Source: an uncultured Prevotellaceae bacterium
GTDB taxonomy: Bacteria > Bacteroidota > Bacteroidia > Bacteroidales > Muribaculaceae
NCBI GenBank assembly: GCA_945921235.1
Contig: CAMEKH010000002.1
Coordinates: 1-62,122 of the forward strand
Direction: 5' to 3'
Length of the DNA stretch: 62,122 nt
Positions 23,929 to 51,232 of this stretch are shown here, in pieces. The notes beneath the pieces are model-generated. The model was not told the origin of the DNA. It saw nothing but the letters and a program-made list of their open reading frames with translations, and did no database searches. How positions within the stretch are numbered: the stretch's first letter is position 1; the number at the start of each line of letters is the position of its first letter. Position numbers and translations under genes: made by a program.

Positions 23929-23977
23929 AACCTAAGCATTTTTTATATTACGTTATTTACTCGTTTATTCAAAAAAA

Positions 23978-24363
23978 GGCAGCACGGCTATAAGCCGGGT
24001 TATGTCGTAGCTCAGAACCTTTCGGCTCTTATGCCACGGTCTGTCATTTATCTGAACATGATGTTGCCACCATGCTTTAGCAGTCTACCCCTCGGCAATG
24101 GACGAGTAACCCTTAAATGCCGATATACTTGACCTTGCAACTCATAAGATGTGCGGCATGCAATGTCACCATCGCACCCGGTGGGCTCTTACCCCGCCTT
24201 TTCACCCTTACCTCCACTGCACGCATGCCATAGAGGCGGTTGTTTTCTGTCACATTACTCCACCCTCACAGATGGCTTCTCGTTAAGAAATATGATACTC
24301 TATGTTGCCCGGACTTTCCTCTCACCGCTCTTACGTCAGTGAGCGACAGACCGCCATACTGCC
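23978..24363 (-). ncRNA. rnpB: RNase P RNA, bacterial class A
   Basis: Catalytic RNA that removes tRNA 5' leaders. On the minus strand the 5' part has the conserved GAGAGGAAAGTCCGGGC block (around 24304-24325) and the 3' part the matching ACATAACCCGGCTTATAG block (around 23988-24006). The ends GGCAG...CTGCC pair as helix P1, giving about 386 nt, and a run of seven T residues follows directly as terminator. The upstream promoter fixes the 5' end to within a few bases. Confidence 0.95.
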
Positions 24364-44073: not shown

Positions 44074-46905
44074 ATGCGTTTAGACGGGAAAGAAGTGGAT
44101 TGTGTGTCGGTCTATGGTGCACGAGTACATAATTTGAAAAATATAGATGTTGAAATACCGCATGGCAAGTTGACGGTGGTTACCGGGTTGAGTGGTAGTG
44201 GGAAGTCATCGCTCGCCTTCGATACTATTTTCGCAGAAGGACAACGTCGGTACATCGAAACATTTTCGGCTTATGCCAGAAATATGCTTGGAGTACTTGA
44301 GCGTCCTGATGTGGATAAAATAACCGGATTGTGCCCTGTGATTTCTATAGACCAAAAAACGGTAAACAAGAACCCTCGCAGCACGGTTGGTACTACGACT
44401 GAGGTGTATGATTATTTGCGCCTTTTGTATGCTCGAACAGCCGATGCCTACTCATATATTTCGGGGGAGAAGATGGTGAGATTCACAAGTGAGAAAATAG
44501 TGAATTTGATTCTACAGAAGTATTTCGGTCGACGTATTTACATAATGTCGCCTTTGGTGAAGAACCGAAAAGGACATTATAAGGAATTATTTGAGCAACT
44601 TAGGAAAAAAGGATATTTGACGGTTAGAGTCGATGGCGACTTCAAGGAAATCGCTTATGGCATGAAACTCGACAGATACAAGATGCACAGCATTGAACTT
44701 GTGGTCGATAAACTAAGGGTTGATGATAAATTCAAGGAACGGCTCTCAGATACGGTGGAACTTGCATTCAAGCAAGGAGACGGTGAGCTAATGGTGCTTG
44801 ATAAAGATGATGCCGATAAAGTGGGGCATTACAGCAGGAAATTAATGGACCCTCTGACAGGATTGTCTTATGCCGAGCCTGCTCCACATAATTTCTCGTT
44901 TAATTCCCCGCAAGGAGCCTGCCGGAAGTGCAAAGGGCTTGGATATGTAAATCTTATCGATAGGGATAAGGTTATGCCTAATATGGATTTATCGATACGC
45001 GATGGGGGAATTGCACCTATTGGTAGATATAAGAATTCATTGCTGTTCTGGCAAATATCGGCAATATGTGAAAAATATGATGTCACGCTTGATACTCCGC
45101 TAAGAGATGTTCCTGAAGAAGCAATTGATGAGATAATGAACGGAACTGACGAGCGACTTGATATAAAAAACGCTACTATGAGCACCACCAATTATTTCAT
45201 GACCTATGATGGCTTGGTGAAATATATTGAACTTCAGCAGAACGATGATGCATCGGCTCAAGCTCAGAAGTGGGCGGGGCAGTTCTTCTCCCGAGCAATT
45301 TGCCCTGAATGTGGAGGGGCAAGACTTAACAAGGAGGCTCTGTGTTATCGTATAGGGGGAAAGAATATTGCCGACCTTGCGCAAATGGACATAGTGGAGC
45401 TGAGAAATTGGATTCGCAACATTCGCAACGTAATGAACGATAAGCAATGGACTATTGCTCAAGAGATAGTGAAGGAGATTAGTGGACGTCTTGATTTTCT
45501 TATAAATGTAGGACTCGACTATATGTCACTTAATAGAAGTTCGGCATCGCTGTCGGGAGGTGAAAGCCAAAGAATACGTCTTGCAACGCAAATCGGTTCG
45601 CAACTGGTGAATGTGCTGTATATACTCGATGAACCGAGCATCGGACTTCACCAGCGAGATAATGTGCGACTGATTTCATCATTGAAGAATCTTAGGGATT
45701 CGGGGAATACTATAATAGTAGTAGAGCATGATAGGGATATGATGCTCGAATCGGATTATATAATCGATATAGGTCCAAAGGCAGGACGTAAGGGAGGAAA
45801 TGTGGTCTTCTCGGGAACACCGGCTGAAATGCTGAAAAGTGACACTATTACGGCTCGCTATTTAAATGGAACACAAAGTATTGATGTGCCTGAAGTGCGA
45901 AGAAGTGGAAATGGAAAATCTATAATTCTTAAGGGGTGCAGTGGAAACAATCTGAAATCGGTAGATGTGGAATTCCCGCTTGGAATGTTCGTCTGCGTTA
46001 CCGGTGTTTCGGGAAGTGGTAAGTCTTCACTCGTGAATGGTACATTGCAACCTATCCTAAGCCGTAGATTCTATAAATCGAATCAAGAGCCTTTACCATA
46101 TAAAGAGATAATAGGTATTGAAAATGTTGATAAGGTGGTTCTTGTAGACCAAACGCCATTAGGTCGTTCGCCTCGGTCGAATCCTGCTACATACACGGGC
46201 ATTTTTACTGATATAAGAAACTTATTTGTGGATATGCCTGAATCTAAGATAAGAGGATATAAAGCCGGAAGATTTTCATTTAATTTGTCGGGCGGAAGGT
46301 GTGAAGCATGCAAGGGAAATGGATATAAGACGGTTGAGATGAATTTCCTGCCCGATGTGCTTGTGCCATGTGAAACTTGTGGCGGAAAACGTTATAACAG
46401 GGAAACGCTTGAGGTGAGATTTAAAGGAAAATCGATTGCCGATGTCCTTGATATGACCATAAATCAAGCCGTGGAGTTTTTTGATTCCATTCCTTCGATT
46501 CTCGCTAAGATAAAAGTGCTGCAAGATGTGGGATTGGGATACATAAAACTCGGACAACCTTCAAGCACGCTATCGGGAGGTGAAAGCCAACGTGTGAAAC
46601 TTGCTGCCGAATTGGCGAAGAAAAGTACCGGTAAAACATTGTTTATTCTTGATGAACCTACCACCGGATTACATTTTGAAGATATTAATGTGTTGCTCGA
46701 TGTGCTTAATCGTCTTGTTGAAAAAGGAAATACTATGATTGTCATTGAGCATAATATGGATATCATTAAGTGCGCAGATTATATAATTGATATGGGACCT
46801 GAAGGTGGTAAGAATGGGGGAGAGATACTTGCTACGGGAACCCCCGAGGAGGTTGCTTCAAATAATAAGTCGATAACGGGACAATTCCTGAAGCATGAAT
46901 TTTGA
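44074..46905 (+). CDS. uvrA: Excinuclease ABC subunit A
   Basis: Damage-recognition ATPase of nucleotide excision repair. 943 residues, full length. Two ABC modules each have Walker A ([20 protein letters not shown]), an ABC signature ([10 protein letters not shown]) and Walker B ([18 protein letters not shown]). Zinc-finger cysteines are present in both (CRKCKG...CPECGG; CEACKG...CETCGG). It appears to be last in the cluster beginning at 41728, an unusual neighbourhood of cell-wall genes. A structured but T-poor hairpin lies 39 bases downstream. Confidence 0.98.
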
Positions 46906-46943
46906 AATAAATTCGTATCAAATTTTATATAATACTATTTTAT

Positions 46944-46997
46944 AATTCGCATGGCTTTTTGAGTAAGCGGTTGCTTTAACTAAAAGTTGTGCGAATT
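46944..46997 (+). repeat. Long imperfect stem-loop downstream of uvrA
   Basis: AATTCGCA (46944-46951) pairs with TGCGAATT (46990-46997). Inside it CTTTT/AAAAG, AGT/ACT and AAGC-GGTT-GCTT continue the stem with small bulges. No T-run follows, so it does not look like an ordinary terminator. Confidence 0.5.
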
Positions 46998-47656
46998 TAT
47001 TTATTGCTATTTGATAGAATTATTTTGATATTTTTATAGTGCTTATTTGTGCGCGTGCTGTATCACGCGTAAGAGGTTTTAAATCAATTTATTATATAGT
47101 GAATTGCGCCGATTTAAGTCTTTAAGAGTGTAATGCTATGCATAATTGGGTAGGAGTAGTAAGAAATTTTGAATTTTCAGTCGGTTGAGCATATAAATAG
47201 CAGAATAATTGTCGTTTTGGTAATTATACCACGCATAGTTTGCGTGTGTGAATGTGAATTGCTAAATATGATTGAGCAATTCAAATCGATTGTATGTTCA
47301 TGAGTTCGCATTTGGATAATGTAGAGTAGGGTAGTTGCATTTATTATTAATTGATTGGTGTCGTAAATATAAAAATAGAATTATTTACAAAACATACTTA
47401 TGAGCTATATACAATATTTTTAAATTGACATAAAATATTGATTTACAATTATTTATAATCATTATTTAAAGATTTTATGTAAATATATTGAAGTGTTGTG
47501 CGACCGGGTGGTAGTGTGAATGAATTCATCGATGAAATATTATGTAAATTGCATAAATACAATAAAATAGATGTAAAAACATAAATAATTTATTTAGGTT
47601 TGGAGTTGTGTGATGAAAACGGGAAATAAATGCGAATTACAATCGCAAACTTTACT

Positions 47657-47672
47657 ATATTTGCAAATATAA
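47657..47672 (+). promoter_or_regulatory. Upstream promoter/operator of the XRE gene: perfect 16-bp palindrome
   Basis: TATATTTGCAAATATA is its own reverse complement, and its first eight bases are a TAnnTTTG box. It lies 50 bases upstream of a nearly identical second site. No good TTG element precedes it. Confidence 0.5.
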
Positions 47673-47683
47673 ATATTAAAAAT

Positions 47684-47723
47684 TTTGATGTTTCAAAACA
47701 AAATAGTATATTTGCAAAATATA
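47684..47723 (+). promoter_or_regulatory. Main promoter/operator of the XRE gene: TTTG-N19-TATATTTG inside a palindrome
   Basis: TTTG at 47684-47687 and TATATTTG at 47707-47714 are 19 bases apart, the normal spacing. The box is part of TATATTT-GCA-AAATATA (47707-47723), arms of 7 bp. The start codon follows 19 bases after the palindrome. Confidence 0.6.
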
Positions 47724-47742
47724 ATTTCAAAACGTAAATAAT

Positions 47743-48288
47743 ATGGATATCGTTTCTCGCATCAAATTCTTCTTAAATTATAGGGGTATTGCGAGTTCCC
47801 AATTTGCTGATACTTGCGAAATACCTCGACCTACTGTTTCTCAGTTGCTAAATGGCAGAAATAAGAAGGTTAGTGACGAAGTAATATCTAAAATTCATAA
47901 TGCATATCCTGAATTATCAATTATGTGGTTGATGTTTGGTGAAGAACCAATGATAGTAAATTCAGAGCACAAATTGATACAGCCAAAAGTTGCTGAGAAT
48001 TTAAAAATTGAATCGAATTCCGAATCTATGTCAATCGATGAGAATCTCAAGCATCAAGATGAAAAGCGAATTTTGTTTTTTAACGATACTGAAGTGCCGC
48101 AAGATATCTCAAACGATTCAGAGAATAAATCTTCACAAATTCCAATATCGAGAGTAATTGAGAATTTTGCGAGAAGTGTTGAGCATAACGATGTAAATAC
48201 AGAAAAGAGTGGCGAAAAGCACATTGTGAATGTTATGGTATTCTATTCCGATAATAGTTTCGTATCATTTGTTCCCGAAAAACGTTAG
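47743..48288 (+). CDS. XRE/Cro-CI-type helix-turn-helix regulator
   Basis: 181 residues. The N-terminal 70 residues form a Cro/CI-type DNA-binding domain (SRIKFFLNYRGIASSQFADTCEIPRPTVSQLLNGRNKKVSDEVISKI), followed by the WLMFGEEPMI segment common in Bacteroidota XRE proteins. Residues about 80-150 are acidic, polar and low in complexity; the end (HIVNVMVFYSDNSFVSFVPEKR) is beta-like. The gene stands alone, AT-rich, between an unusual gap and tRNA-Arg. Palindromes overlapping both upstream boxes suggest self-control. No toxin, phage or partner gene is adjacent, so targets are unknown. Confidence 0.82.
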   Translation: MDIVSRIKFFLNYRGIASSQFADTCEIPRPTVSQLLNGRNKKVSDEVISKIHNAYPELSIMWLMFGEEPMIVNSEHKLIQPKVAENLKIESNSESMSIDENLKHQDEKRILFFNDTEVPQDISNDSENKSSQIPISRVIENFARSVEHNDVNTEKSGEKHIVNVMVFYSDNSFVSFVPEKR

Positions 48289-48356: not shown

Positions 48357-48430
48357 GGTCCGGTAGCTCAGCTGGATAGAGCAACAGCCTTCTAAGCTGT
48401 GGGTCTTGGGTTCGAATCCCAACCGGATCA
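48357..48430 (+). tRNA. tRNA-Arg (anticodon TCT)
   Basis: 74 bases fold into a standard cloverleaf: acceptor GGTCCGG/CCGGATC with one G-T pair, D stem GCTC/GAGC, anticodon stem ACAGC/GCTGT with loop CTTCTAA (anticodon TCT, reads AGA), and T arm TTGGG-TTCGAAT-CCCAA. The discriminator is A and CCA is not encoded. It has its own promoter and terminator. Confidence 0.97.
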
Positions 48431-48432
48431 CG

Positions 48433-48618: not shown

Positions 48619-49290
48619 TTAAAACAAATATTGTACGCCATCCAAATTCTCTAATAATTCCCTGTCAGAATCAGAATCTGCAAATAATTTAATAATTTTA
48701 GAAATAAACTCATATTGTTTAGTTGTCCAACCTTGACAATGCTCAAATTCAAAGTCGCAGAAGAATATCATTTCTTCAGGGGCTACTTGCTCTCCATTTT
48801 CTCCCTTTGAACGGAATCTATGAATCACAGCCCAACCATTAACTTCATCATCGTAGATGTCTTCTGTGGCATTTCTTAAATCAGCAATTTTATCGTTTAA
48901 TTTAGGATTTAATCTACCTAAATCAGATCTATATTCCTCAACTTCTTGTTTCGCTCTATTATACTCTCCACGAGAGAGTTCCGAATCGTAGTATTGAGTT
49001 GGAGCATATATTTCCATAGTAGATTGAGCTAAATCCATTTTTCGCTCAATAGATTCAATTTTAGAATATAATTCAGCAACCTCTTTAGTTGTTTCTAAAA
49101 CTTTTTCTATCTTAGAAATATTTATACGAGAACTATCAACTCTTGTTGATATTGCTTCATAACTTTCAGGATATGTCAGATAATCCTTAATACAATCCGA
49201 AACCAGTTTTTCGGCTTTGTCCTCATTAGAGAGTGTGCAGGAAGTAAAAATCAAAGCAACTGCACAGAACAATAGTTGTAGCTTTTTCAT
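48619..49290 (-). CDS. Predicted lipoprotein with coiled-coil region, function unknown
   Basis: 223 residues. The lipoprotein signal is clear: MKKLQLLFCAVALIFTSC with Cys18 as lipidation site. Residues about 22-50 resemble a small helical repeat (KAEKLVSDCIKDYLTYPESYEAI), a pattern seen in several unnamed Bacteroidota lipoproteins. Residues about 55-140 are charged and heptad-like (coiled coil). A compact end (about 145-223) contains WAVIHRFRSKGENG and FFCDFEFEHC with two nearby cysteines. It is monocistronic, with its own -7 box and a strong terminator, next to tRNA-Arg. I do not recognise a named family. Confidence 0.8.
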   Translation of the reverse strand: MKKLQLLFCAVALIFTSCTLSNEDKAEKLVSDCIKDYLTYPESYEAISTRVDSSRINISKIEKVLETTKEVAELYSKIESIERKMDLAQSTMEIYAPTQYYDSELSRGEYNRAKQEVEEYRSDLGRLNPKLNDKIADLRNATEDIYDDEVNGWAVIHRFRSKGENGEQVAPEEMIFFCDFEFEHCQGWTTKQYEFISKIIKLFADSDSDRELLENLDGVQYLF

Positions 49291-49312
49291 AATAGTAGTA
49301 ATTTAATTTACG

Positions 49313-49320
49313 CAAAGATA
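49313..49320 (-). promoter_or_regulatory. -7 box (TATCTTTG) for the 48619 lipoprotein gene
   Basis: TATCTTTG fits TAnnTTTG and lies 22 bases before the ATG at 49290. No TTG at the usual distance. Confidence 0.5.
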
Positions 49321-49909
49321 CTAACAATAATTAACATAGACCTCATTTTTGTTTAGATTTAGGAGATTTGTTTCTAAAAGGATATATTATTTAACATAAT
49401 ATTAATTATGTAACAAATGGGCGTGGAAATTATTTGTGTCCGGAGCTGCGGTAATCGTGTATTGTTATTTTGTATTGCTATTTACTTTTATGTTTATTCG
49501 TTTTTTCAGATAATCTTTTACACATAGTGCTGAAATTGATGCAAATATAGTATTTGCTGAAGTTGTAGAATATATATAAAATTATACTTATATATTTTAC
49601 AGAGTTACCTAACATAATTCCGCCAGTGAGAAGTCACAATAATTATCACAACTAATGATTTATCCGCAATATCGGGGCGCTATTTTGGCATTTTTATTGT
49701 TTTGATAATCTTAAAGAGCTAATAATGAATATGAGATAAACACAGGTATATATAGTCTTCAAATATCGATTCCTTATAATAAGTGAAAGCTTATGTTTTA
49801 TTCTACTGCATTATGTGCCACTCAATCATGCATAGGTGTAGCGCATATTATTCATTTAATGATAAGTTAAATTATTTATTGAATAATGGATTTGACCGGT
49901 TTTATTGGT
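49321..49909. other. Roughly 590-base gene-free region
   Basis: AT-rich DNA with no credible coding frame. I note a minus-strand TATATTTG box at 49542-49549 that leads only to a 15-codon basic frame, an AT palindrome (ACATAAT-ATTA-ATTATGT near 49398-49415) and a Fur-box-like imperfect palindrome near 49848-49868. None is convincing as a gene. Confidence 0.5.
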
Positions 49910-49940
49910 TTGGATATATTAAACATTATGATTAATTTTG
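49910..49940 (+). promoter_or_regulatory. Promoter of the THUMP-like methyltransferase gene (TTG-N20-TAATTTTG)
   Basis: TTG at 49910-49912 and TAATTTTG at 49933-49940 are exactly 20 bases apart; the ATG follows 23 bases later. Confidence 0.65.
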
Positions 49941-49963
49941 ACAATGACAATTGATATATAAAT

Positions 49964-51232
49964 ATGGTATCAGATAATTATAAAGTGTTGTTGAATAATA
50001 ATTTAACTTGTATTAATGATAATTTCTTCACATTCATAGAAGAGCACGAAGATGATGATGTGGAAAAATTAAGGCTGAAGCGATTTAGTAATCACGATTT
50101 TGATACGTCATTTGCTATTACCCAGATTGAGTGCAGGAAGAAGATTCGCAAGAAGTTGCCTGAGATTTATGGAAATAAGCGATTCCTTTTTCCTTCGGTA
50201 TTATCTACCGAGCAGTGTACGAGTGAGGTTGTTGCAAAATATCATGCTACAATAATAGGAGAAGTAGATAGCTTTCTCGACATGACCGGAGGGTTGTGTA
50301 TCGATGATTATTATATAGCTGATAATGTGAAAGAATTGCTATCAATTGAGAAAAATGAACATACGGCTGATATCAGTCGCTATAATATGTCGGAAATGCG
50401 AAAGAATATTAGTGTTATATCAGGTGATTCTGCTGAATATTTGCGTGGAGACGTGCGCCGATATGATGCAATATATATCGACCCTGCTCGCAGAGGTGTA
50501 AACCAGAGTAGAATGTTCGGGTTGCCCGATTGTGAACCTAATATCATTCCCCTACTCTCTCTTATCAAGAGTCATACTGATGTTCTTTACGTCAAAGCAT
50601 CTCCAATGCTTGACATTACTCAAATGCTAAGAGAAGTGAGTGATGTGACTGATATATGGGTCATTTCGCTAAGGAATGAATGTAAAGAGTTGTTTTTTAA
50701 GCTAGATTTTGCATTGAATAAAAGATTCACTATAGAAGAAAGTGCTGACAATATTTACGAAAGTCCTAAGGTTCACTGCATTAATTTTGTTGATGAAAAT
50801 ACTATGCAAGAGCTTAATTATAGCTATCTTCGAGATAAGACAACGAGCGATATTATAATATCCGATTGTGTGAAGCAATATATATATGAGCCAAATGCTT
50901 CAATTATGAAAGCAAATGCTTTCGGAGAAGTGTGTAGTCGATATAAGGTTGATAAAGTTGCTGTGAATTCACATTTGTTCACGAGTGGAGAATTGGTGCA
51001 TGATTTTCCGGGGAGGATATTTCAAGTAGAAGATGTGATACCATTCAAAGATAATTTGCTGAAAAAAGCTCTCAAAGGAATTAAGCGGATTAATGTGAGT
51101 GTGCGTAATTTTAAGTTGACAGCCGAACAATTGAAAAAACGTCTAAAAGTGTGCGATGGCGGTTCTAAATATTTATTTGGAACTACTGATGCCGGTGGAG
51201 AGATGAAAGTGCTGTTGTGTAGTAAGATTTGA
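49964..51232 (+). CDS. Class I SAM-dependent methyltransferase with THUMP-like domain
   Basis: 422 residues. An N-terminal helical part (about 1-90) precedes a Rossmann methyltransferase domain: motif I as SFLDMTGGLCIDDYYIA, acidic loop LLSIEKNEHTADISRYNM, then ISGDSAEYL and the family hallmark YIDPARRG. The C-terminal part (about 300-422) contains the THUMP-like end (FPGRIFQVEDVIPF, KRINVSVRNFKLTAEQLKKRLKV). Family members are thought to be RNA methyltransferases, but substrate and modified base are unknown. Motif I differs from the more usual LTCGLGVD form. It is monocistronic and convergent with smpB. Confidence 0.85.
   Translation: MVSDNYKVLLNNNLTCINDNFFTFIEEHEDDDVEKLRLKRFSNHDFDTSFAITQIECRKKIRKKLPEIYGNKRFLFPSVLSTEQCTSEVVAKYHATIIGEVDSFLDMTGGLCIDDYYIADNVKELLSIEKNEHTADISRYNMSEMRKNISVISGDSAEYLRGDVRRYDAIYIDPARRGVNQSRMFGLPDCEPNIIPLLSLIKSHTDVLYVKASPMLDITQMLREVSDVTDIWVISLRNECKELFFKLDFALNKRFTIEESADNIYESPKVHCINFVDENTMQELNYSYLRDKTTSDIIISDCVKQYIYEPNASIMKANAFGEVCSRYKVDKVAVNSHLFTSGELVHDFPGRIFQVEDVIPFKDNLLKKALKGIKRINVSVRNFKLTAEQLKKRLKVCDGGSKYLFGTTDAGGEMKVLLCSKI

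Follow-up and report, generated by a model that had tools for sequence, protein, structure and literature searches.

A long gene-free region upstream of a conserved, dif-linked XRE/HTH regulator gene in Bacteroidales

The interval between uvrA and the regulator gene

The window analysed here, a stretch of 62,122 nucleotides, comes from contig 2 of an assembly that is 93% complete and broken into 226 contigs. The largest gene-free stretch of the window is the 837 bp that separate uvrA from a gene for an XRE/HTH regulator (Table 1). The gap is probably non-coding, its longest ORF being 46 aa at a threshold of 40 aa, and its GC content is 26% vs 41.3% for the whole window. The earlier note had pointed to a gene-free region after uvrA, which is real, but the interval it gave, 46906-47400, stops short: the gene after uvrA begins only at 47743, and both the promoter of that gene and conserved sequence at about 47080-47280 went unnoticed. 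The uvrA gene is one of two UvrA-type genes in this genome; its orthologues in congeners share 85% identity, and the second UvrA 48%. Elsewhere, the window carries an RNase P RNA of bacterial class A (23975-24362, minus strand).

Table 1. Coordinates of genes, signals and conserved sequences around the gap
Feature	Position	Strand	Details
uvrA	44074-46905	+	ORF, 943 aa
Probable uvrA transcription terminator	46944-46997	+	16-bp hairpin, one internal 4-bp stem, then TTTATTTATT
Conserved non-coding element	47082-47280	+	nhmmer, model without the window's genus, E 0.0011
Imperfect dyad TGGTA-ATTA-TACCA	47218-47231		counterpart of conserved TGGYA-N3/4-TRCCA
Weaker AT-rich conserved block, TTTACAA ... 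TTTACAAT-like	47377-47450		4-congener alignment
HTH gene promoter, TTTG-N19-TATATTTG	47684-47714	+	sole -33/-7 match on the forward strand of the gap
XRE/HTH regulator gene	47743-48288	+	181 aa
dif site, 28 bp, TTGTTACATAA-TTAATA-TTATGTTAAAT	49389-49416	-	sole exact pattern match in the assembly

In the regulator, a variable linker joins an N-terminal HTH to a C-terminal motif, IMVFYSDNSFESFxP, that is kept in 24 aligned relatives. Its Pfam scores lie just below the cut-offs (HTH_26, 21.3 bits against 22; HTH_3, 19.7 bits against 23), and a profile of three sequences gave no PDB sequence match. The gene is present in 239 of 297 genomes of the family. A sample of 119 genomes from across the order yields it in 68 at a limit of E 1e-8, a count that includes weak matches and possibly paralogues. 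Eight genomes carry a copy whose matching stretch is interrupted by a single in-frame stop (G188, G146, G210, G068, G244, G169, G159 and G030), and two loci with this Bacteroidales gene, L078 and L080, come from records titled Pseudoflavonifractor and Clostridium, titles that are probably wrong. A tRNA-Arg (anticodon TCT) follows the window's copy at 48357-48431, 69 bp past the HTH gene; the locus DNA examined from the congeners G003 and G004 holds no tRNA.

What sets this gene apart is the length of the DNA before it. A gene-free region of at least 550 bp lies upstream at 85% of 122 HTH loci vs 7% of 270 control ORFs, and the median upstream gap is 859 bp (93 loci measured) vs 42 bp for the controls; genes were defined here simply as ORFs by a 100-aa rule, and unmeasured loci were entered as lower bounds. 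The gap is long beyond the family as well: among 28 loci from other Bacteroidales families, the gap is 338-985 bp in the 17 that could be measured, while the remaining 11 ran off the available sequence.

The promoter match ends 28 bp before the start codon, and the window's gene is without a long leader. Two near-identical boxes, TATATTTGCAAA(A)TATAA, lie 51 bp apart at 47656-47674 and 47707-47725, the second of which (TATATTTGCAAA) is the -7 box of this promoter. A different arrangement is seen in the genus g18, where locus L119 and 12 related loci have a leader within the last 195 bp, and an inverted repeat, TTTTTAAATTTGG ... CCAAAATTAAAAA, flanks the promoter. In group B of that genus the leader reaches up to about 150 nt, with a two-sided change in one of its 34 pairs, and the fold over the promoter, more stable than elsewhere, amounts to -12.8 kcal/mol (z -4.6).

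Inverted repeats and the end of uvrA

The four inverted repeats that had first drawn attention to this DNA are all present at the coordinates claimed for them, but as a set they are not unusual. Perfect stems of at least 6 bp with loops of up to 20 number five in 46906-47400, a count that omits the first repeat (its loop is larger than 20), vs 3.3 ± 1.4 in shuffled sequence; 19% of 300 first-order Markov shuffles reach five, and 34% of such shuffles contain arms of at least 8 bp. The fold of the whole 495 nt has a z of -2.05 and is equalled by two of 100 shuffles. Taken singly, the second repeat (CGCGTG/CACGCG, 47052-47069; z -1.31), the third (CACGCA/TGCGTG, 47230-47246; z -2.96) and the fourth (47256-47282; z -1.54) are equalled by 22, 1 and 16 of 200 shuffles, and in congeners they pair at no more than 2/7, 3/6 and 6/9 positions, in an alignment that is itself uncertain. 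The third is thus moderately unusual, but only the first repeat is truly exceptional (z -4.51, equalled by none of 200 shuffles).

This first hairpin is most likely the terminator of uvrA, since in three congeners (G002, G003 and G004), whose uvrA is followed by a similar gap, the matching position is occupied by a strong hairpin with 6-7 T behind it; their stems are unrelated to it in sequence. It combines a stable hairpin and a T run downstream of a gene, as intrinsic terminators do, although its T-rich tail is interrupted, and a simple terminator scan did not list it.

A conserved element at a near-constant distance from the regulator gene

Further into the gap lies a conserved element that a model built without the window's genus recovers independently. 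In that nhmmer search, which covered 1.6 Mb and shuffled controls, the next match, one seed genome aside, stands at E 1.5; a second model, R1, which had the window as a training sequence, places the core at 47107-47246 (E 2.2e-11). Among the 122 regions upstream of HTH genes, to which the search was restricted and where position is therefore partly by construction, 45 hold the element at E<1e-8, 19 of these outside the seed. All 45 copies fall within the family and on the strand of the HTH gene, with their ends 436-769 bp from its start, and a promoter of the local type lies within 250 bp of the gene at 39 of these 45 loci. In 34 loci, the element's end lies 558 ± 87 bp from the HTH gene, and uvrA lies 443 ± 274 bp from the element, so that the distance to the HTH gene is the steadier of the two. 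These are conserved sites at a constrained distance from one gene, as in a cis-regulatory region, and at four loci (2.5 kb examined) the element and the HTH gene occur without uvrA.

A search of whole genomes with R1 removes the limit of the upstream-only search. It matched 31 of 119 genomes at E up to 0.01, and at E<1e-6 it gave nine matches, one per genome, five of these genomes having supplied training sequences. Among the HTH gene positions listed, which include none for two of the nine (G031 and G104), the other seven matches lie 0.45-0.8 kb upstream of the gene. The element was undetected in 49 of 94 family loci and in all 28 loci from other families, so the long gap is spread more widely than the element. 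It is present at 34 of 43 loci where the gene is linked to uvrA and at 4 of 33 where it is not, with 18 undecided, and it could thus belong to the uvrA-HTH interval as such.

Conservation is dense in g18, where two species groups (13 and 10 congeners) keep blocks of sequence at near-fixed spacing across the greater part of the 750 bp that precede the gene. Blocks like the weaker AT-rich one in the window can be seen by eye in other alignments. At six loci (L050, L053, L056, L059, L060 and L063) a second partial TTTAAC..GTGAGAATT motif, followed by GTGGGGTGGGATAGGGC, occupies roughly -975 to -900 relative to the HTH gene, some 400 bp upstream of the first copy. The dyad, which lies within the element's core, occurs twice as a consensus match in the window, where 0.2 are expected. 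Its halves vary independently, with TGGTA or TGGCA on either side, so an RNA stem would be broken in some loci, as is compatible with a protein site.

We consider it probable, though well short of certain, that uvrA ends at its hairpin and that the rest of the gap is a long control region of the XRE/HTH gene acting at the level of DNA. Transcription of uvrA would stop at the hairpin, and proteins, the HTH protein itself being one candidate, would bind spaced sites such as the dyad, which lie several hundred bp ahead of the promoter; binding there would set the expression of the regulator. We favor DNA over RNA because the blocks keep their sequence and not their pairing. The dyad spacing of 3 or 4 counts against such a control region, as a single dimer is usually intolerant of such variation. 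Of the 'RNA or regulatory hub' proposed at the outset, the second half is the better supported, in that the XRE/HTH gene downstream of the gap is conserved and sequence blocks within the gap keep a nearly fixed distance from it; the first half is not supported.

It is unlikely that the gap is instead mostly unconstrained DNA, left by low gene density near the terminus, with nothing of consequence in it besides the uvrA terminator and the HTH promoter. The gap is indeed poorly conserved in the window's own genus (mean column identity 63%, gene ends included), its inverted repeats are no commoner than chance, and the second-largest gap of the window, 49291-49963, lies close by. Yet unconstrained DNA would hardly yield the element to a model that lacked the window's genus, hold it at a near-fixed distance from the gene in 34 loci, or keep dense blocks in both g18 groups, and the upstream gap is long also where dif is far away.

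A structured RNA in the gap is not supported by these comparisons. A search of 46880-47760 against Rfam 15 gave no match, either by the gathering score or with the E limit relaxed to 5, in line with the earlier note, which had recognised no known family there. Of the two signs whose joint lack the earlier note would take as refutation, transcription and covarying base pairs, the second was not found: for the distal element in 13 congeners of g18, which is not the window's genus, 17 weak pairs include none that is compensatory, and the consensus fold of 27 aligned loci from several genera has no pairs at all. On these two folds, the Rfam search and the genus alignment, we reject a small RNA as the leading reading. 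We hold it to be quite improbable that the gap encodes a trans-acting small RNA, be it a minus-strand one or one poor in conserved structure. The conserved blocks do span several hundred bp, the 495-nt fold is somewhat more stable than shuffled sequence, and one minus-strand promoter-like match at 47664 points into the gap, with a terminator-like minus-strand hairpin directly past it (47647-47631). Consensus folds of g18 also contain short hairpins with very negative z, at -1.9 to -8.9 kcal/mol in group A and at only -1.9 to -6.3 kcal/mol in sliding folds of ten loci, but the scores overstate stability, since alignments once shuffled have fold energies near zero. Likewise, 15 of 40 pairs are changed on both sides in the four-sequence alignment of the window's genus, but the four sequences are badly aligned and the changes come mostly from one sequence each. 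Against a small RNA also stand the lack, on both strands, of any peak of promoter matches close to the element (two forward and no reverse matches between -800 and -400 in the 45 element loci) and the lack of second copies of the element in the whole-genome search. In the window's gap, no forward promoter match was found besides the HTH gene's own.

Linkage to dif and likeness to known systems

The exact dif pattern occurs once in the window's assembly, 1.1 kb after the HTH gene, and the reversed control pattern has no match there. The site has two 11-bp arms and a 6-bp spacer, and XerD scores above its cut-off in the same genome. It is intergenic: the gap that contains it, 49291-49963, is bounded on one side by a minus-strand gene (48619-49290) and on the other by a gene for a THUMP-like methyltransferase, which starts at 49964. 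Across the family the exact pattern is found in 172 of 297 genomes, nearly always once, and the reversed pattern in almost none. Many loci also have dif-like 28-mers in the DNA before the HTH gene; the pattern was derived from those sites, which are thus not independent support for linkage, and the independent support comes from the genome-wide counts and from other families.

The HTH gene is linked to dif across the order. At least 77 family genomes have both listed, on the same contig in 48 and on different contigs in 29; among the matches listed, the 48 same-contig distances are up to 2 kb in 22 genomes, up to 20 kb in 34 and up to 100 kb in 46. In 20 family genomes dif is 805-1255 bp upstream of the gene, and in two of those listed the two are far apart (G196, 532 kb; G176). 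Among 39 genomes from other families, 14 have both on one contig, all 14 within 90 kb and 11 within 25 kb, with HTH matches counted down to E 1e-8, some of which may be paralogues. In four of six other-family genomes (G376, G408, G404 and G057) the GC skew changes sign from + to - no more than about 30 kb away from the gene; the other two, G051 and G359, show no turn there, the latter having dif at a distance of 89 kb. We found no description of this linkage in open-licence PubMed Central papers. Dif has been predicted in 19 of 19 Bacteroidetes (PMC3025954), and PMC3091885 describes it as intergenic and near the skew turn, and chromosome dimer resolution in Bacteroidetes as unstudied as of 2011.

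This linkage does not by itself explain the gap, because the element is best kept in g18, where dif is elsewhere. Nor is the element dif, which in the window lies past the HTH gene and in g18 is far from the element; a weak dif-like 28-mer at about 47524-47551 is an inexact match and absent from the congener alignment. A replication origin can be set aside, as the 45 upstream regions hold no DnaA-box cluster, dnaA lies elsewhere in seven genomes, skew is flat in G196, and the turn from + to - in other families has the polarity of a terminus.

We see little likelihood that the gap is more than a promoter region, namely a nucleoprotein site tied to the terminus that would act together with the HTH protein in chromosome segregation or termination. 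Such a role would fit the closeness of gene and dif in family and order, the genomes with dif about a kilobase upstream, and the skew turn in four of six genomes, and we found no PubMed Central paper that combines MatP, Bacteroidetes, terminus and macrodomain. It fits poorly with an element that is well kept in g18 despite the distance of dif, with the absence of the element (at E<1e-8) from every locus that has dif in its upstream region, with the two genomes lacking a skew turn at the gene, and with the lack of dyad repeats near the terminus: in G196, none of 20 stretches sampled has more than one hit per 20 kb, and the window has two. With no enrichment of the dyad around the terminus in the DNA sampled, we also reject a matS-like array. 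It is similarly doubtful, if conceivable, that the HTH protein and its upstream region together form a Bacteroidales terminus system in which the protein helps to organise, segregate or time the end of replication, with the DNA serving both as control region and as binding platform.

We return to the control region of the XRE/HTH gene as the preferred reading, in which protein binding in the gap would govern that gene. What began as a candidate RNA gives way to a regulator gene that is conserved among gut Bacteroidales and preceded, in many genera, by an unusually long upstream region, and the linkage of this gene to dif across the order offers a handle on terminus biology in Bacteroidetes.

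Several parts of the locus resemble known systems. The HTH promoter shares the TTTG / TAnnTTTG consensus of Bacteroidetes housekeeping promoters (PMC7366714), with no notable differences. The hairpin after uvrA shares with intrinsic (Rho-independent) terminators its place directly past a stop codon; the congeners' hairpins are GC-rich with a T run, whereas the window's is AU-rich with a weak T tract. The dif site agrees with XerCD sites in its 28 bp, its arms and spacer, its one exact copy and the presence of XerD, but it lies outside 46906-47742 and is distinct from the conserved element. MatP/matS of E. coli (PMC3330122) offers a loose likeness, a DNA-binding protein and the terminus, but no array of repeated sites was found around the terminus in the DNA sampled here. 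A further parallel is the csgD gene of E. coli, a regulator gene with a long upstream control region. Control regions of the csgD type share with this one a non-coding stretch of several hundred bp in which many spaced sites serve one regulator gene; here the sites are putative, the arrangement recurs in many genera of a single family, and the long gap is found order-wide.
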